Shown here: piece after piece, positions 2,994-9,950 of the stretch
How positions within the stretch are numbered: the first letter of the stretch is position 1
Layout: each line of letters begins with the position of its first letter
Assembly (NCBI GenBank): GCA_025966215.1
Contig: JAOPVM010000153.1
Coordinates: 1-10,341 of the forward strand
Origin: Klenkia sp.
GTDB lineage: Bacteria > Actinomycetota > Actinomycetes > Mycobacteriales > Geodermatophilaceae
Reading direction: 5' to 3'
DNA length: 10,341 nt
Translations under genes and position numbers: made by a program
Notes under the pieces: generated by a model
The model's database searches: none
Told to the model about the DNA's origin: nothing
The model's input: only the letters and a program-made list of their open reading frames with translations

Positions 2994-3117
2994 GCCCTCA
3001 GGGTCGGCCTCCGACACGGCAGCCGCCAACGGAGGACGATGGGGGCTCGGCCGGGAATGGAGCAGGCCCCTGCGGGGCTGCTGCGGGAGACAGGGCCACC
3101 CGGCCACCGTCGACCCC

Positions 3118-3124
3118 AGGAGGG
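3118..3124 (+). promoter_or_regulatory. Shine-Dalgarno AGGAGGG deciding the PAC2 start
   Basis: AGGAGGG lies 7 nt before GTG 3132. It favours this start over the in-frame ATG at 3039, whose 31-residue extension reads as Gly/Pro/Arg-rich non-coding sequence, even though that ATG also has a GGAGG at a short 3-nt spacing. Confidence 0.7.
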
Positions 3125-3131
3125 ACCCACC

Positions 3132-4058
3132 GTGCCGCTGCACCCAGAGGACCTCGTCGAGGTGCTCCCCGAGGCCGACCGCCTCGTCGAGCGCACCGCC
3201 GCCGACGAGCTGGTGCTCGTGCACGACCTGGCCGGGGAGTACGACGCCGCCCACGCCAGCGCGCTCGCCGGGTCGCACCTGCTGGCCAGCCTCGACCACG
3301 AGGTGATCGCCCGCTTCGACGCCGACGCCCTGGTCGACTACCGCGGCCACCGGCCCCGGATCACCTTCTCCGGCGACCGGTACGAGTCCTTCGCCGCGCC
3401 GGAGATCACCCTCTACGCGGTCGAGGACGACGGCGGCACGCCCTTCCTCCTCCTGCACGGCACCGAGCCCGACTTCGCGTGGGAGCGGTTCACCCGCTCG
3501 GTGCTGGGTCTGGTCGAGCGGCTCGGGGTGACCCGGATGGTGATGCTGCAGGCGATCCCGATGCCCGTGCCGCACACCCGCCCGGTCACCGTCACCGCGC
3601 ACGCCACGCGCCGCGAGCTGATCGAGAGCTACCCGGTGTACTGGGGCGAGATGCGCATCCCGGGCAGCGCCGGTGCCCTGCTCGAGCTGCGTGCCGGCGA
3701 GGCCGGGGTGGACGCCCTGGGCATCGCCGCGCACGTGCCGCACTACCTCTCCCAGGCCACGTTCCCGGCCGCGTCGCTGACCCTGCTGGAGCACCTGGAG
3801 ACCCTCACCGGGCTGCACGTGCCCACCGAGACCCTCCGCGAGGCCGCCGAGGCCAACCGCACCGAGATCGACGCCCAGATCGGGCGCTCCACCGAGAACA
3901 CCGCGGTCGTGGCGCAGCTGGAGAACCAGTACGACGACTTCACCGCCGCCCGCGAGGGCACCGGCCTGCTCGGCGCCTCCGGCGAGATGCCCAGCGGCGA
4001 GGAACTCGGCGACCAGATCGAGGCCTTCCTCGCCGAGCAGGACCGCCGCCAGGACTGA
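3132..4058 (+). CDS. PAC2 family protein (proteasome-assembly-chaperone-like)
   Basis: A 308-residue soluble protein of the PAC2 family. It shows the strand LVLVHDLAGEYDAAHASALAGSHLL near the N-terminus, then VIARFDADALVDYRGHRPRITFSGDRYESF, ITLYAVEDDGGTPFLLLHGTEPDFAWERF, the segment MVMLQAIPMPVPHTRPVTVTAHAT, and a PHYLSQATFPAASLTLLEHLETLTGL block. In eukaryotes and archaea PAC2-fold proteins act around proteasome assembly. In Actinobacteria, many of which have a 20S proteasome, the role of these paralogues is not settled. The last ~70 residues are helical and acidic (ENTAVVAQLENQYDDF...EELGDQIEAFLAEQDRRQD). The start GTG 3132 is set by a strong Shine-Dalgarno. The stop abuts the left end of the palindrome-bounded DUF559 block. 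Confidence 0.87.
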   Translation: MPLHPEDLVEVLPEADRLVERTAADELVLVHDLAGEYDAAHASALAGSHLLASLDHEVIARFDADALVDYRGHRPRITFSGDRYESFAAPEITLYAVEDDGGTPFLLLHGTEPDFAWERFTRSVLGLVERLGVTRMVMLQAIPMPVPHTRPVTVTAHATRRELIESYPVYWGEMRIPGSAGALLELRAGEAGVDALGIAAHVPHYLSQATFPAASLTLLEHLETLTGLHVPTETLREAAEANRTEIDAQIGRSTENTAVVAQLENQYDDFTAAREGTGLLGASGEMPSGEELGDQIEAFLAEQDRRQD

Positions 4059-4068
4059 CCCCCCGCCG

Positions 4069-4127
4069 CCGGTTGCGCCCGAGACGGCCAGAACACGCCG
4101 CCATCTGGCCGCCTGGGGCTCAACCGG
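4069..4127. repeat. double-stem palindromic repeat, copy 1
   Basis: The outer arms are 4069-4080 (CCGGTTGCGCCC) and 4115-4127, which pair with a single mismatch. The inner arms are 4085-4092 (CGGCCAGA) and 4104-4111 (TCTGGCCG), which pair perfectly around an 11-nt loop. It sits between the convergent PAC2 and DUF559 genes and contains the DUF559 stop codon (4120-4122), so it could also terminate transcription from both sides. No U-tract follows. It is near-identical in design to copy 2. Confidence 0.8.
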
Positions 4128-5052
4128 CGAGGCCGCGCTCGCGCAGCCGGCGAGCCACCACGGCCGCGATCTCCCGGCGGCAACCCGAGGGGTCCTGGGT
4201 CAGTCGTTCGTAGCTGTAGCGCAGCACCACCCAGCCGAGGACGGCGAGGCCCGAGTCGCGCCGCATGTCCCGCTCCCGATCGGCCCGGCTGCCGTGGAAC
4301 CGGTGCCCGTCCATCTCCACCGCCACTCGGGCGTCGACCCACGCCGCGTCGAGGAACACCCAGCCCCCCTCCCGCACCCGCACCCGGTGCTGCTGCGCGA
4401 CGGCGGGCAGCCCCGGGATGCGCAACACGTGCAGCACGCCGAACACCTCGAGCTCGCTCTGGCACCCCTGCGCCACGAGGTCGAGCAGCGCCGACAGGGA
4501 GCGGACCCCGGGGTGTCGGCCGTGCACCGTCGAGGCGGCCCGCACGTCCTCGACCTCCACCCGCCGTTCCCGGACCGCCGCGATCACCGCCTGCCGGACA
4601 GCGGCCACGTCCCGGACCGCCCGCGGGTTCCAGCCCGGCGCGTGCGCCCAGGCCCAGGCATCGACCAGGCTCGTCGCCAGGGCGGTCACCAGGAGGCCGT
4701 GCGCGGCTGCGAGCCGGAGCCGACCGGTCGTGCGGTGGACCACCACCCGGGAGTCGTCCCGCGGGGTCTGCTCGGCGTTGACGAGCACGTGGAGCGGGCC
4801 GGCGTCCTTCGCGAGCAGGCCGTGGGCCACCAGCGCCGATCCGTGGCTCAGTGCGCCACCGGTCCAGACCAGTGCCGCCTCGGCGCGGACGCTCCACTCC
4901 GCGGCCCGCTCCGGCAGGGCGACGACCCCGGGGTGGACCTCCACGAGGTCCCCGCCGACGAGCCAGCGCCGGACGCTGCGCGAACTGCAGAGGTCGGCGA
5001 GTTCGGACCGCCCGAGGACGCCCCGGGGCAGCAGGTGGGCGAGGTCGTGCAC
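4120..5052 (-). CDS. DUF559 (Vsr-like endonuclease fold) protein with AbiEi-like N-terminus
   Basis: This 310-residue protein is read from GTG 5052. An upstream in-frame GTG at 5124 lies inside palindrome copy 2 and encodes an unlikely leader. Residues ~1-50 (HDLAHLLPRGVLGRSELADL...VRRWLVGGDLVEVHPGVVALPE) resemble the winged-helix start of AbiEi-type antitoxins. A middle domain (~55-190) follows. The C-terminus (~197-310) is DUF559-like: SELE at 199-202, FLDAAW with D235, VEMDGHRFHG with E246, then RDMRRDSGLAVLGWVVLRYSYERL. That spacing matches the Vsr/restriction-endonuclease-like fold with plausible catalytic Asp/Glu/His residues. Proteins of this layout are common and often multi-copy in Actinobacteria. 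Their biological role and DNA target are unknown to me. The final codons and the stop lie in palindrome copy 1, so repeat and gene are physically fused. Confidence 0.85.
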   Translation of the reverse strand: MHDLAHLLPRGVLGRSELADLCSSRSVRRWLVGGDLVEVHPGVVALPERAAEWSVRAEAALVWTGGALSHGSALVAHGLLAKDAGPLHVLVNAEQTPRDDSRVVVHRTTGRLRLAAAHGLLVTALATSLVDAWAWAHAPGWNPRAVRDVAAVRQAVIAAVRERRVEVEDVRAASTVHGRHPGVRSLSALLDLVAQGCQSELEVFGVLHVLRIPGLPAVAQQHRVRVREGGWVFLDAAWVDARVAVEMDGHRFHGSRADRERDMRRDSGLAVLGWVVLRYSYERLTQDPSGCRREIAAVVARRLRERGLAG

Positions 5053-5107
5053 CCCGTCAGCCTGACCGGAACCGCGGATTCCGACATGCAGCCTGTGGAC
5101 GACCGAC

Positions 5108-5166
5108 CCGGTTGCGCCCCACACGGCCAGAACGCGCCCGGTTCTGGCCGCCTCGGGCGCAACCGG
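5108..5166. repeat. double-stem palindromic repeat, copy 2
   Basis: The outer arms 5108-5119 (CCGGTTGCGCCC) and 5155-5166 pair perfectly over 12 bp. The inner arms 5124-5133 (CGGCCAGAAC) and 5141-5150 pair perfectly over 10 bp around a 7-nt loop. It lies upstream of the DUF559 start and just past the remnant of the MFS gene. It shares most bases with copy 1, including the arm sequences and the spacing between arms. Confidence 0.85.
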
Positions 5167-5180
5167 CGGGGGGATCAGGG

Positions 5181-5552
5181 ATCACCGAGGGGGCGGCCCG
5201 GAGATCGCCCCACGCGGCCCACGCCGGCCGTTCAGGCCAGCGCGGTGGCCTGGACGTGCGGCGGGTGGTTCGAGGAGGTGAACGGGTGGACCAGCACCTG
5301 GGCGCTGAACACGAAGCAGCCGGTCCGGAACACCATCGCGTAGCTGCCGCCCAGGGGCAGCCGGATCGACAGCAGCGCCAGGAACAGCGCGCCCGCGGCG
5401 GACCAGGCCATCCCGGCCCTCCGCGCCCCGATGCGGTCGGCGACCTGCCCGGCGACCAGCAGCCCGACGACGGCGCCGACCCAGCAGAGCGGGGCGACCC
5501 AGCCGGCGGGCCGGGCCGCCGTCGCAGGTGCGACGGGGGCGGTTCGGGACAC
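5181..5552 (-). pseudogene. MFS transporter remnant (AAHS aromatic-acid:H+ symporter-like)
   Basis: An open stretch of 106 codons starts at GTG 5552 behind a good Shine-Dalgarno and reads as part of a 12-helix transporter. WVGAVVGLLVAGQVADRIGARR is a helix plus MFS motif A, followed by two more helices. The segment GCFVFSAQVLVHPFTSSNHPPHVQATALA matches the second half of AAHS-type carriers, where GW...GVGR(I/V)GAI..GP comes next. After the TGA (5232-5234) the same frame continues TAGVGRVG, so TGA appears to replace the TGG of a GW pair. Losing one G from the following G-run shifts frame; the alternative frame reads GAISGPP. Homology stops near 5181, beside palindrome copy 2. Most of the N-terminal half and the last helices are absent. 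It is almost certainly non-functional. The substrate class is inferred from motif resemblance only. Confidence 0.72.
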
Positions 5553-6493: not shown

Positions 6494-7381
6494 TCAGGGC
6501 AGCCCGGCCGGCTCCCCGACGGCGAACAGGTCACCGAGCCGGTCGACCCGGTCCAGCACGTCGGCGGTGTCGAACACCAGCGGCCCGTCGAGCTCGTCCC
6601 AGCCGACCGGGGTGGACACCGTCGCCCCGGCCCGGGCGCGCAGCGAGTAGGGCGCCACGGTGGTCTTGGCGGTGTTGTTCTGGCTCCAGTCCACCAGCAC
6701 CTTCCCCGGCCGCAGCACCTTCTCCATCCGCCAGACCACCTCCTCGGGGGTCTCCCGGGAGAGGTCCTGGGCCAGGTCCTTCGCGTACCGCGAGGGGTGC
6801 TCGGCGTCGGCGCAGCTGATCGGGGCGTAGACCTGCAGGCCCTTGCTGCCCGAGGTCTTCACCACCGGGTCCAGGCCGTCGGCGAGCAGTCGCTCCCGCA
6901 GCCGGCGGGCGACCGCGGCACACTCCACCACCCCGGTGCCCGGCCCCGGGTCGAGGTCGAGCACCAGCAGGTCGGGCAGCTGCGGTACGCCGTCGTCGTC
7001 CACCCGCCACTGCGGCACGTGCAGCTCCAGCGCGGCCAGGTTCGCCGACCAGGCCAGGTCCGGGACGGCGGCGAGCAGCACCATGTCCAGCTCCTCGCGG
7101 TCCTTCTTGGTCGACCCCGGGGCGGGCACGGTCACGTGCTGCACCCAGGCCGGTGCGTTGCGGGCGTTGTTCTTCTCGAAGAACGACGCCCCCTCGACCC
7201 CGTTCGGCCAGCGGGTGAAGGTGCACGGCCGGCGGGCCACGTGCGGCAGCAGCACCGGGGCGATCCGGACGTAGTAGTCGATCACCTGCGCCTTGCTGAA
7301 CCCCACCTCGGGGAAGAGCACCTTGTCCAGGTTGGACACCTCGAGCTGGCGGCCCTCGATCTCCACCCGCACCCGGCTCAC
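6494..7381 (-). CDS. LigD-type primase/polymerase domain protein (NHEJ)
   Basis: A 295-residue stand-alone version of the LigD polymerase domain, an archaeo-eukaryotic-primase-fold enzyme that adds nucleotides (preferably ribonucleotides in characterised homologues) at broken ends. Visible signatures are the N-terminal VSNLDKVLFPEVGFSKAQVIDYY, RPCTFTRWPNG, NLAALELHVPQWR (~114-126), the catalytic LDLDPGPG with D142 and D144, KTSGSKGLQVYAPI (~175-188), and VLVDWSQNNTAKTTVAPYSLRAR with the third acidic residue D231. Mycobacterial LigD has SGSKGLH in the fourth of these; here residue 183 is Gln instead of His. Its GTG start overlaps the stop of the ligase gene (GTGA), implying coupled translation. 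In mycobacteria this domain is fused to phosphoesterase and ligase domains; here it is a separate gene. Confidence 0.93.
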   Translation of the reverse strand: MSRVRVEIEGRQLEVSNLDKVLFPEVGFSKAQVIDYYVRIAPVLLPHVARRPCTFTRWPNGVEGASFFEKNNARNAPAWVQHVTVPAPGSTKKDREELDMVLLAAVPDLAWSANLAALELHVPQWRVDDDGVPQLPDLLVLDLDPGPGTGVVECAAVARRLRERLLADGLDPVVKTSGSKGLQVYAPISCADAEHPSRYAKDLAQDLSRETPEEVVWRMEKVLRPGKVLVDWSQNNTAKTTVAPYSLRARAGATVSTPVGWDELDGPLVFDTADVLDRVDRLGDLFAVGEPAGLP

Positions 7382-8343
7382 GGCTCGCGCTCCACGGCGG
7401 CGGGGTCGACGTCCTCGCGCAGCCCCCGCCAGGCGGGGTGCCGCAGCCGGCCCTCCCGGGTCCACTCGGTGAACGCGACCTCCCCGACCAGCAGCGGGTC
7501 CACCCAGTGCGCGTCCCGGGTCGCGGTCGCCGGCAGCACCCCGGTGAACGGCGACGTCGCACGGGCGGTGACGGCACCGCGGAGCGCGTCCAGCGCCCGG
7601 TCGGTGAACCCGGTGCCGACGTGTCCGGCGAACACCAGGTCCCCCGCCTCGTCGTGCACCCCGACCAGCAGCGAGCCGATCCCGCCCTGCCGTCGTCCGG
7701 CACCGGGGCGCCAGCCCCCGACGACGACGGTCTGGTGCCGGACGTTCTTGACCTTCACCCACTCCGGCCCGCGCCCCCCGGGCCGGTAGACCGACGCCGT
7801 CTTCTTCGCCACGACGCCCTCCAGCCCGTTGTCCAGGCTCGCCGCCTGGATGCCGGCGCCGTCGGAGGTGAACCAGGGGGTGGTGACCCAGCGCGCGTTG
7901 CCCACGCCCAGGGCGTCCAGCCGGTCGCGGCGTTCGACGTAGGACGACCCGAGCAGCGAAGCGCCGTCCCAGGCCAGCAGGTCGAAGACGAAGAAGCTCA
8001 CCGGCGCGGCCGCGGCCAGCCGGGCCACGTCGGGACCGACCAGGTGCATCCGACCCTGCAGGGCGCCGAAGTCGGGCCGGCCCTCGCGCAACGCGACCAC
8101 CTCGCCGTCCAGCACCGCGTCGTGACCGGCCAGCGCCTCGGGCAGCCGGGCCAGCTCGGGGTACCGCGCGGTGACGTCGGCGCCGCTGCGCGCCCGCAAC
8201 CGCAGGCCGCCGTCGCGGACGTGGGCCAGCACCCGGACGCCGTCCCACTTGAACTCGAACGCCCAGCCCTCGGCGGTCGGCAGCTCGCCGGCCGTGGCGA
8301 GCATGGGCAGCGTCGTCTCCGGGACGACATCGGGCGCCGTCAC
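7378..8343 (-). CDS. ATP-dependent DNA ligase, LigD ligase-domain type (NHEJ)
   Basis: A 321-residue ligase that seals nicks and double-strand ends, with ATP as the expected cofactor. Nucleotidyltransferase motifs are intact: motif I FEFKWDGVRV with the adenylated Lys at 32, motif III LDGEVVAL (79-81 DGE), motif IIIa FFVFDLLAWDG (~117-127), motif IV LEGVVAKK (175-181), and motif V WVKVK (195-199). The OB-fold C-terminus ends in motif VI (EWT...RHPAWRGLRED, ~293-310). This is the LigD ligase domain alone, with no polymerase or phosphoesterase fused. It lies 7 bp after ku and overlaps the polymerase gene by 4 bp, so all three genes should be made together. The start is GTG 8343, giving MTAPDVVPETTLPMLAT, with only a weak Shine-Dalgarno. 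Confidence 0.94.
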   Translation of the reverse strand: MTAPDVVPETTLPMLATAGELPTAEGWAFEFKWDGVRVLAHVRDGGLRLRARSGADVTARYPELARLPEALAGHDAVLDGEVVALREGRPDFGALQGRMHLVGPDVARLAAAAPVSFFVFDLLAWDGASLLGSSYVERRDRLDALGVGNARWVTTPWFTSDGAGIQAASLDNGLEGVVAKKTASVYRPGGRGPEWVKVKNVRHQTVVVGGWRPGAGRRQGGIGSLLVGVHDEAGDLVFAGHVGTGFTDRALDALRGAVTARATSPFTGVLPATATRDAHWVDPLLVGEVAFTEWTREGRLRHPAWRGLREDVDPAAVEREP

Positions 8344-8350
8344 CGCACGC

Positions 8351-9304
8351 TCAGGCGCTCTTGGCCGCGGCCTTCGCGGCCGGTGCCTTCTTCGCCGGTG
8401 CCTTCTTCGCAGGGGTCGCCTTCTTCGCGGGGGCGGCCTTCCTCGCCGCGGCCTTCTTCGCCGGAGCCGGCTTCTCGGAAGGCCCCTCGCCGTCGGACTC
8501 GTCGGACTCGTCGGACTCTGCGGGCTTCTTCCCGGCCCGTTCCACGCTGCGCCGCAGCGCGCTCATCAGGTCGACCACCGCACCGCCGTCGTCGTCGGAC
8601 TCGGTCTCCTCCGGGGCGACCACGTGCCCGCCGGCCTGCTTGGCCTCCAGCAGGGCGGTCATCGCCTCCTTGTAGTCGTCGGTGAACGCCGAGACGTCGA
8701 AGGTGCCGCTCATGGTGGAGATCAGGGACTCGGCCATGGCCAGCTCGGCGGGCTTGGCCGTGACGTCCTCGTCGAGGAAGCCGAACGAAGGGGTCCGGAT
8801 CTCGTCGGGCCAGCGCATGGTGTGCAGCACCAGCACCCCGTCGCGCACCCGCATCGCGGCCAGCGACTCCCGCTGCCGGATGGCGATCTTGGTGATCGCG
8901 ACCTGGCCGGCCTTCTCCAACGCACTGCGGAGCAGCACGTAGGGGCGGGTCGCGGTGCCCTCGGGCTCGAGGTAGTAGGTCTTCTCGAAGTGCACCGGGT
9001 CGATCTCGGCCTGGTCGACGAACTGCAGCACCTCGATCTCGTGCTTGCTGCCCAGCGGCAGCTCCTCGAGGTCCTCGTCGGTGAGCACCACGAGCTGGCC
9101 GTCGGGCAGCTCGTAGCCCTTGGCGATGTCGCGGTACTCGATCTCCTCGCCGTCCACCGAGCAGACCCGGCGGTACTTCACCCGGCCGCCGTCGGTCTTG
9201 TGCACCTGGTGGAACTTGACGTCGTGGTCCTCGGTCGCGGAGTAGAGCTTCACCCCGATCGAGACCAGTCCGAACGACACCGCGCCACGCCAGATCGACC
9301 GCAC
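8351..9304 (-). CDS. ku: Ku protein, NHEJ DNA end-binding
   Basis: The Ku homodimer rings DNA ends and recruits the LigD enzymes encoded just downstream. The 317-residue protein starts with the bacterial Ku signature (RSIWRGAVSFGLVSIGVKLYSATEDHDVKFHQVHK) and continues through RVKYRRVCSVDGEEIEYRDIAKGYEL, EIEVLQFVDQAEIDPVHFEKTYYLEPEG and KAGQVAITKIAIRQRESLAAMRVRDGVLVLHTMRWPDEIR. The core ends near residue 260. It is followed by an acidic SDESDESDGEG patch and a Lys/Ala/Pro tail (about 278-317, KKAPAKKA-type repeats) like histone-H1 tails. The protein is about 40 residues longer than the ~273-residue M. tuberculosis Ku. Such basic tails occur in other actinobacterial Ku proteins and add DNA binding. 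GTG 9304 is chosen because AGGAGT lies 4 nt upstream; GTG 9310 would overlap that site. Confidence 0.95.
   Translation of the reverse strand: MRSIWRGAVSFGLVSIGVKLYSATEDHDVKFHQVHKTDGGRVKYRRVCSVDGEEIEYRDIAKGYELPDGQLVVLTDEDLEELPLGSKHEIEVLQFVDQAEIDPVHFEKTYYLEPEGTATRPYVLLRSALEKAGQVAITKIAIRQRESLAAMRVRDGVLVLHTMRWPDEIRTPSFGFLDEDVTAKPAELAMAESLISTMSGTFDVSAFTDDYKEAMTALLEAKQAGGHVVAPEETESDDDGGAVVDLMSALRRSVERAGKKPAESDESDESDGEGPSEKPAPAKKAAARKAAPAKKATPAKKAPAKKAPAAKAAAKSA
8382..8411 (-). repeat. 15-bp tandem repeat encoding the Ku KKAP-type tail
   Basis: Two adjacent 15-bp units (8382-8396 and 8397-8411) differ only at the last base. Looser copies continue to about 8466. They encode the Lys/Ala/Pro tail and could vary in number between strains. 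Confidence 0.6.
8492..8518 (-). repeat. perfect 9-bp x3 coding repeat in ku
   Basis: GTCGGACTC occurs three times in exact tandem on the plus strand, at 8492-8500, 8501-8509 and 8510-8518. It encodes the repeated Ser-Asp-Glu of the acidic patch between the Ku core and the basic tail. Confidence 0.85.
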
Positions 9305-9308
9305 GGCC

Positions 9309-9314
9309 ACTCCT
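9309..9314 (-). promoter_or_regulatory. Shine-Dalgarno AGGAGT before ku
   Basis: AGGAGT on the minus strand lies 4 nt from GTG 9304 and decides that start over GTG 9310. Confidence 0.6.
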
Positions 9315-9389
9315 GTCGAAGGTCCACCACGCCCGCCCTCGGGCCCAAGATCACAGCGTAGGGCCGTAGTGGGGGCCTGGCAGCCCGGA

Positions 9390-9431
9390 ACGCCCCGCCG
9401 GGTGTAGTGCACGCCCCGTCGGGGGTAGGTC
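9390..9431. repeat. two 21-bp direct repeats in the ku / DUF5709 divergent region
   Basis: The units 9390-9410 and 9411-9431 both follow ACGCCCCG(C/T)CGGG(T/G)GTAG. The second contains the perfect palindrome CCCCGTCGGGG. The 21-bp period is two DNA turns, which suggests an operator or paired protein-binding sites. The 167-bp region between the two starts holds nothing else clear. A TACGCT hexamer at 9355-9360 on the minus strand could be a ku -10 but lacks a good -35. Confidence 0.45.
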
Positions 9432-9457
9432 GGACCGGACGCGCACCACCGACCCGA

Positions 9458-9464
9458 CGGAGGA
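9458..9464 (+). promoter_or_regulatory. Shine-Dalgarno CGGAGGA before the DUF5709 gene
   Basis: The GGAGG core lies 7-8 nt before ATG 9472, which fixes the start. Confidence 0.65.
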
Positions 9465-9471
9465 CACCCCC

Positions 9472-9894
9472 ATGACACAGCCCGAGGGCCAGACCGCCCG
9501 CGACGTGTTCCCCGAGGACGACGGCATCCCCGAGATCGCCGACGACACGCTCGAGGACGCCGCCGCGGCCGAGGACCCCCAGTTCGCCCCCAGCGTGGCT
9601 GCCGAGGAGGCCAACGCCAGCGTGGACTTCGGCACCACCGCGGCCGAGCAGGCCGAGGGCGAGGACCTGGACGGCCGGCTGGCCCGCGAGGTGCCCGACG
9701 TCGACGTCGACCCCGGCACCCGCCCGGCCGAGGACCCCGAGGCACCGCTGGCCCAGCTGGACCAGGACGCCGACGCCGACCCGCTGGACAGCTCGGGCAG
9801 CGACACCGTGGGCGACGACCTGGTCGCCAGCGGCAGCGAGGCCATCGGCGGCCAGGGTCCCGAGGAAGGCGCGATGCACGTCGTCGAGGACTGA
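9472..9894 (+). CDS. DUF5709 domain-containing acidic protein
   Basis: A 140-residue, strongly acidic, low-complexity soluble protein. Asp, Glu and Ala dominate and there are few basic residues. It has the DUF5709 look: an N-terminal VFPEDDGIPEIADDTLEDA, a central segment GEDLDGRLAREVPDV (~60-75) that is the most conserved part of the family, and a C-terminal GSDTVGDDLVASGSEAIGGQGPEEGAMHVVED. It has no membrane segment or signal peptide and is probably largely disordered. The family is actinobacterial and, as far as I know, has no established function. A good Shine-Dalgarno supports the ATG. It is transcribed divergently from ku across a region with two 21-bp repeats, so shared control with NHEJ genes is possible but unproven. 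Confidence 0.85.
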   Translation: MTQPEGQTARDVFPEDDGIPEIADDTLEDAAAAEDPQFAPSVAAEEANASVDFGTTAAEQAEGEDLDGRLAREVPDVDVDPGTRPAEDPEAPLAQLDQDADADPLDSSGSDTVGDDLVASGSEAIGGQGPEEGAMHVVED

Positions 9895-9920
9895 CCCTCA
9901 CCGGGGCCAGCCGGGTTGAG

Positions 9921-9950
9921 TTGTGCACGACCGCACCGGCTCACTAGGGT
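9921..9950 (+). promoter_or_regulatory. candidate sigma-70-type promoter for the STAS gene
   Basis: TTGTGC (9921-9926) and TAGGGT (9945-9950) are separated by 18 nt. A transcript starting here would carry a leader of ~165 nt before GTG 10122. The match is moderate, so confidence is low. Confidence 0.3.

Follow-up and report, generated by a model that had tools for sequence, protein, structure and literature searches.

The stretch analyzed here (10,341 nt, hereafter the window) contains a nuclease gene enclosed by two palindromes and located between a PAC2-family gene and the remnant of an MFS gene. The nuclease gene (4120..5052, minus strand) starts with GTG at 5052 and encodes a 310-aa protein (protein record P0001) of the DUF559/REase_MTES_1575 family. 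The left double-stem palindrome (4067..4129, no strand assigned) lies downstream of the gene, beside the end of the PAC2 gene (3039..4058, plus strand), and overlaps the final 10 nt of the nuclease gene. The right one (5108..5166, likewise without strand) lies between the start of the gene and the end of the MFS remnant (5232..5552, minus strand). Because the protein record sets the start at 5052, the right palindrome is wholly upstream of the gene, and the intervening 55 nt (5053..5107, minus strand) are the presumed promoter or leader. The MFS remnant is short: in relatives such as G040, the stretches to which its two parts align are separated by about 750 nt, so this genome has probably lost an internal portion of the MFS gene. 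A sequence-only reading of the window had described two double-stem palindromes around a single gene encoding no transposase, and both features were recovered, the encoded protein being a DUF559/MTES_1575 nuclease.

The DUF559 and MTES_1575 profiles matched the protein with scores above the curated cut-offs (39.0 versus 38.2 and 31.8 versus 20.6 bits, respectively), and the nuclease domain spans residues 233-298 (4159..4356, minus strand). The residues S211, E214, D247, E258, D260, and H265 (numbering of the trimmed protein) are 96-100% conserved in 107 homologues; some of these residues are presumably catalytic. The DUF559 domain is shared with Vsr and Vsr-like endonucleases, and some homologues are named very-short-patch-repair endonuclease in database records. 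The region N-terminal to the nuclease domain (residues about 16-151; 4600..5007, minus strand) matched the PADLOC AbiEi profiles and is the presumed DNA-binding part, which we take to be a winged helix. Of 30 homologues, 27 were matched by an AbiEi profile and 28 by PDC-S37, a candidate-defence profile of PADLOC. The similarity to the AbiEi antitoxin of the type IV AbiE system concerns this N-terminal region; the C-terminal nuclease domain is a difference, and none of the eight window proteins scanned matched the partner AbiEii (DUF1814). No solved structure was matched by sequence at E <= 1.

The two palindromes are the only ones in the window that scored at least 12 in our custom script. Their predicted RNA folding energies range from -48.6 to -56 kcal/mol (z -3.9 to -5.4), none of 200 shuffles was equally stable for any of the four strands, and order-1 Markov surrogates of the window (n = 30) yielded no palindrome scoring 17 or more; chance palindromes were ruled out by the shuffled folding and the surrogates. 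Aligned over 64-66 nt, the two palindromes match at 84% when compared directly and at 85% when one is inverted. Thus, the similarity noted in the sequence-only reading, which took the palindrome halves for inverted copies, is real, but given these nearly equal values, the preference for inverted pairing is marginal. A search of 14 sources against Rfam at gathering scores gave no match.

In full length, the window-type palindrome was found in three copies in its own genome (2.92 Mb, 73% complete), two of them in the window and the third at G000:C88:297-355 (L047:297-355), and in two copies in G022, both at the orthologous nuclease gene; in G036 and G006 there are two partial matches, 23-36 nt in length. 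A high-copy repeat flanking the gene by accident was ruled out for this type, with two of the three full-length copies located here. The only exact sites of the 13-nt core GGTTGCGCCCGAG in the genome are the two window palindromes. With one mismatch allowed, there are 11 sites versus 14 for the reversed control, so that GGTTGCGCCCGAG alone is not a genome-wide repeat. The C88 copy lies at a rearrangement junction, the same flanks being separated in relatives by kilobases of other DNA, from 1.3 kb (G045) to 5.8 kb (G029) where they are found on one contig in order, which makes a clean insertion of this copy doubtful.

Homologues of the nuclease are encoded in 56 of the 57 genomes of the family (among the matches listed). 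We surveyed 80 loci representing 79 genes (one gene was counted twice, as L074 and L213), chosen among the matches listed with preference for nearer and full-length homologues, so that short or broken matches were mostly left out; the palindrome scores, the similarity cut-off of 18 for matched sides, and the distance limits were of our own choosing. A palindrome was detected upstream of 47 of the 79 genes and downstream of 52, with 31 genes having palindromes on both sides, 48 lacking them on at least one side, and 11 having none. Matching palindromes (similarity of at least 18) enclosed 27 of the 79 DUF559 genes versus 0 of 477 control genes, which our own GC-frame script had called in 796 kb of DNA from four relatives (Fisher, 2e-25, computed on the 80 loci with one gene double). 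Among the control genes, 13 had palindromes on both sides, none of them matched. The proposal that paired copies enclose DUF559 genes was therefore borne out by the survey. Outside loci containing clpX or valS, 19 of 49 loci had matched pairs. Across the 31 two-sided loci, the mean within-locus similarity was 31.9, whereas permuting the partners gave 11.6 on average and never more than 17.9 (20,000 permutations). The loci are not independent, forming 19 clusters by shared neighbours, of which eight include at least one matched pair (L202, counted as a single cluster, may belong to the clpX-valS group). At the 27 matched loci, the flanks aligned better in direct orientation in 13 cases and in inverted orientation in 10, with four ties. 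In other families of the class, palindromes were present on both sides at five of 29 loci and were matched at all five (34-48), two of these (L304 and L306) being from one genus.

The association was also found from the palindrome side. The only pair of similar palindromes (at least 16, 150-3,000 nt apart) in the 796 kb of control DNA, at L251, encloses a distant DUF559 homologue (E 2.8e-19) that is absent from the survey list and, having been missed by the GC-frame script, is not among the 477 control genes. In 1.48 Mb of loci with the control DNA included, six of eight similar pairs enclose a DUF559 homologue, a set that is biased because the window locus and its orthologue in G022 are part of it, as are loci chosen for a palindrome or neighbour. 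The two exceptions are L110 and a pair that involves a third palindrome next to L189, a DUF559 locus.

The type of palindrome follows the lineage of the nuclease. In 60 loci that were kept after palindromes with plain clpX-terminator motifs had been removed, palindrome similarity tracked protein identity (Mantel r 0.67, permutation maximum 0.19). The same type was shared by 82% of 55 pairs from different genomes with at least 70% protein identity, compared with 2 of 27 pairs from one genome, and hence the palindrome type belongs to the gene lineage rather than to the host. One orthologous DUF559 locus, identified by its neighbours, comprises 18 genes in 18 genomes. Among the 12 of these with both flanks, similarity is 38 within loci versus 18 between loci, a difference reached in 0 of 20,000 permutations, which implies that the two copies change in concert while the site stays fixed. 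At the clpX-valS loci the effect is weaker (22 versus 11 in 11 loci, with the own partner being the best in five).

Flanking by chance was ruled out by the within-locus similarity, the absence of matched pairs around the 477 control genes, and the joint change at the orthologous locus. The same results, together with the Mantel correlation, all speak against an ordinary restriction, repair, or defence-type nuclease that happens to be flanked by palindromes; we find this reading scarcely credible, notwithstanding the DUF559/MTES_1575 domain and the PDC-S37 matches on which it could draw. The pairing of palindrome and nuclease is very probably a real biological unit.

The clpX-valS gap contains DUF559 genes of different lineages (L195-L208 compared with L052-L069), and in some genomes the gene is apparently reversed and accompanied by a different palindrome type, beside which there is a separate clpX-side hairpin. 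This gap is a possible hot spot. In the genome of the window itself, the clpX-valS gap (L049:1089-1597, G000:C191) contains a DUF559 remnant between two palindromes, a 119-aa reading frame matching the N-terminal third of the protein.

Besides the flanking pairs, palindromes of the same types occur as dispersed solo copies. For the type with the outer arm GGCAWRGGAAGC, an exact search of the 57 genomes for the arm with its complement 20-48 nt away gave 167 matches in 15 genomes, whereas the reversed-pattern control gave none in any genome. All nine genomes in which the gene of the 18-genome locus carries this type contain 5-36 copies, the flanking ones included, and no exact copy was found in the other nine, where the orthologue carries a different arm or lacks a detected palindrome. 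Six further genomes have 1-12 copies each, five of them (G012, G054, G023, G004, and G037) without a cognate gene among the matches listed and the sixth (G052) with a candidate cognate gene. The 50 distinct copies of this type are 59-61 nt long, arm positions 13-25 pair at 80% (58% in shuffled sequences), and similarity of the flanks ends within about 2 nt, so that the ends are sharp. Complementarity of the flanks, which could have indicated insertion into stems, extends over about 2 nt at most in these 50 copies, and this reading was set aside. In G035, G039, and G041, 23 solo copies (out of 35 loci examined for the GGCAWRGGAAGC type) were compared with flanks; for 19 of them, those of the gene resident in the same genome were the best match, or shared first place, among nine.

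Of the 61 GGCCCAGAAC copies, found in 24 of the 57 genomes, 11 are located at nine DUF559 genes (place lists compared by eye, among the matches listed), eight of which are the gene at clpX-valS; these solos are thus weak evidence for a connection with DUF559. Many of them are likely to be old, because they often recur at orthologous sites. In the control DNA, 5 of 68 palindromes matched a DUF559 flank of their own genome, and these five also matched a flank of another genome; the remaining 63, the L251 pair included, matched no own-genome flank (all among the matches listed). Copy number is one beyond the pair for the window type, in an incomplete genome, and at least 0-36 exact copies per genome for the two other types. 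In G022, another dispersed palindrome family, GACGAGAAGCGCC, with four copies in 396 kb (L236:7708, L238:2610, L244:3614, and L249:8186), has no match to a DUF559 flank among the matches listed. A RAYT as the mover of these palindromes was ruled out at the level of the Y1_Tnp profile (PF01797), which was found in none of the 57 family genomes and in 5 of 14 control genomes.

The resemblance of the N-terminal region to AbiEi could point to another role for the flanking copies, in which the protein represses its own gene through the upstream palindrome and the downstream copy serves as a terminator. AbiEi is described (PMC7319586) as binding inverted repeats, a further likeness if the N-terminus binds the palindrome here, and as repressing its own operon through them. 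The frequency of AbiEi profile matches among the homologues and of upstream palindromes at the surveyed genes (47 of 79) fits such autoregulation, which nevertheless leaves unexplained both the matching downstream copy and up to 36 dispersed copies that are situated at gene ends, not at promoters. We consider this highly improbable.

The positions of the solos point to termination of transcription. The GGCAWRGGAAGC copies lie between convergent genes in 23 of 35 cases and between divergent genes in two, and the GGCCCAGAAC solos in 33 of 49 cases and none, respectively (gene calls by our own GC-frame script; many GGCCCAGAAC copies are mutually orthologous). Within the genus of G041, a site between convergent genes that is readable across in 21 of 26 genomes (partly by eye) has a palindrome of the GGCAT type in four genomes, in one of them decayed, and different palindromes or none in the others; in G004, it contains a two-gene insert. 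At clpX-valS of G045, there are palindromes without a DUF559 match. From the location at 3' ends, the varied palindromes at one site, and the G045 gap, we think it likely that the solos serve as bidirectional terminators. The G004 insert (L361/L366, G004:C15) lies between two short GTGCACTTCCGCGGAAGTGC palindromes of another family, and we take its genes to be TetR-like and DarcynII-like.

All these observations are compatible with a reading in which the palindromes are terminator families and nothing else, spread independently of the nuclease (by recombination, gene conversion, or an unknown enzyme) and borrowed by DUF559 genes on both sides, and the G004 insert, in which palindromes of a third family enclose a TetR-like gene and one more, would fit it as well. 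This was the plainer explanation offered in the sequence-only reading, and a terminator role stands as likely. As a full account it is rather unlikely in our estimate, since it does not explain the matched pairs at 27 of 79 DUF559 genes compared with 0 of 477 controls, the copy upstream of the start, the coexistence of different types in a genome, the concerted change of the two copies at the orthologous locus, or the blind match at L251, where a pair in control DNA led to a DUF559 homologue.

Presence and absence of the block were compared across nine genomes of the genus, that of the window included. The genus is probably Klenkia, a locus of G014 being identical to L044 of Klenkia marina. 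Only two of the nine, the window genome and G022, have the block at the PAC2-MFS junction. In six other genomes, PAC2 and MFS are convergent and directly adjoining, with stops ranging from overlapping to a few dozen nucleotides apart (by eye), and without a DUF559 match or a palindrome; a look for relatives of this kind, with PAC2 beside MFS and no block, had been proposed in the sequence-only reading. The ninth genome, G045, lacks both the block and a match to MFS. The gene and both palindromes come and go as one unit at this site. The two carriers are nested in the PAC2 tree rooted at its midpoint, where their sister is the blockless G040 (0.999); this topology favours a gain of the block, as do the tight empty sites. 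In the ClpX tree, the carriers are placed weakly (0.677) outside the other members of the genus, and by this placement a single loss would explain the pattern equally well. Taken as a whole, the comparison of sequences favours a gain at PAC2-MFS. No target-site duplication was recognised at this site or at the dispersed copies, and a plasmid or phage origin was set aside, with one weak plasmid match and no phage match.

Gain of a block with like ends could be due to homing, in which the nuclease would cut a solo palindrome and the palindrome-gene-palindrome block would be copied in by homologous repair, turning one palindrome into two. Vsr-like homing endonucleases exist, and blocks and dispersed copies of one type are found in one genome, so the presence and absence at PAC2-MFS could be read in this way. 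However, the blockless site has no palindrome in any of the six genomes, and one gene lineage has remained fixed at one locus in 18 genomes while palindromes multiplied. Homing is accordingly very unlikely to account for the block.

The arrangement closely resembles that of REP palindromes and their RAYT transposases. As described in PMC2817692, a RAYT gene lies between two cognate REP palindromes with which it coevolves, orthologous RAYTs keep their locus while the REPs change yet stay palindromic and matched, and REPs are also dispersed as extragenic copies without the gene. Here too, the gene is flanked by matching palindromes (in the window and at 27 of 79 family genes, the window included), gene and palindromes coevolve, palindromes change jointly at a fixed locus, and dispersed copies lack the gene. 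The differences concern the enzyme, which is a DUF559/MTES_1575 nuclease with an AbiEi-like N-terminus instead of a Y1/HUH enzyme; the palindromes, which are about 60 nt long and less numerous than REPs, usually given as more than 100 copies per genome; and orientation, for which the 27 matched loci gave no consistent direction. Because the defining Y1 enzyme was not found, the system is not a RAYT, although it works likewise. MITEs and IS elements with terminal inverted repeats are similar in that short gene-less copies exist beside a gene-carrying form, but here each end is a complete palindrome, the gene in the block does not encode a transposase, and there is no recognised target-site duplication. 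To our knowledge, REP-type palindromes have so far been tied to a single enzyme family, the Y1/HUH RAYTs. In open-access full text (subscription journals being outside the scope), no pairing of DUF559 with RAYT/REP, inverted repeats, or transposable elements was found, and the papers containing both DUF559 and "palindrom" looked unrelated by title.

We therefore interpret the block as the gene-carrying form of a palindrome-nuclease pair that follows REP/RAYT-like logic with a Vsr/DUF559 nuclease, and we assign this reading a probability of about 0.6. The sequence-only reading had arrived at the same analogy, which is now backed by the matched pairs, the six empty sites, and the covariation of palindrome with nuclease lineage. 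Under this interpretation, the unit would consist of a palindrome, a DUF559 nuclease gene, and a second palindrome, with one palindrome type per nuclease lineage, and solo palindromes of the resident type (close to 60 nt long for the type examined) would be dispersed at gene ends in the same genome. The AbiEi-like N-terminus may recognise the palindrome as a hairpin, cruciform, or duplex, and the Vsr/DUF559 domain may cut it, after which repair or template switching could copy palindromes to new sites and, by the same process, keep the two flanking copies alike. Solos would persist through their use as bidirectional transcription terminators, so that, in this proposal, persistence would be due to the terminator role and origin and matching to the nuclease. 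That action of the nuclease on the palindrome is the cause of the spread has, in our judgement, slightly better than an even chance.

More broadly, the data could represent a new class of mobile palindromic repeats in Actinomycetes, based on a PD-(D/E)XK/Vsr-fold nuclease with an AbiEi-like DNA-binding domain and no transposase, in which each nuclease breeds and maintains its own hairpin repeats; such a class would be an independent counterpart of REP/RAYT and one source of many actinobacterial terminators, a possibility for which we see even odds. The logic of REP/RAYT recurs here with a nuclease of unrelated kind, in a bacterial family whose genomes yielded no RAYT. Should the nuclease prove to drive the palindromes, this would be a second solution to the spreading of short palindromes, and if it is shown to move them, the system deserves a class of its own. 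The proposal, if true, would also give a function to the large group of "DUF559 domain-containing" proteins and provide protein and cognate DNA pairs ready for testing.

Elsewhere in the window (6494-9928), there are genes for Ku and an ATP-dependent DNA ligase, which, with an apparent LigD polymerase domain beside them, presumably form a non-homologous end-joining cluster.
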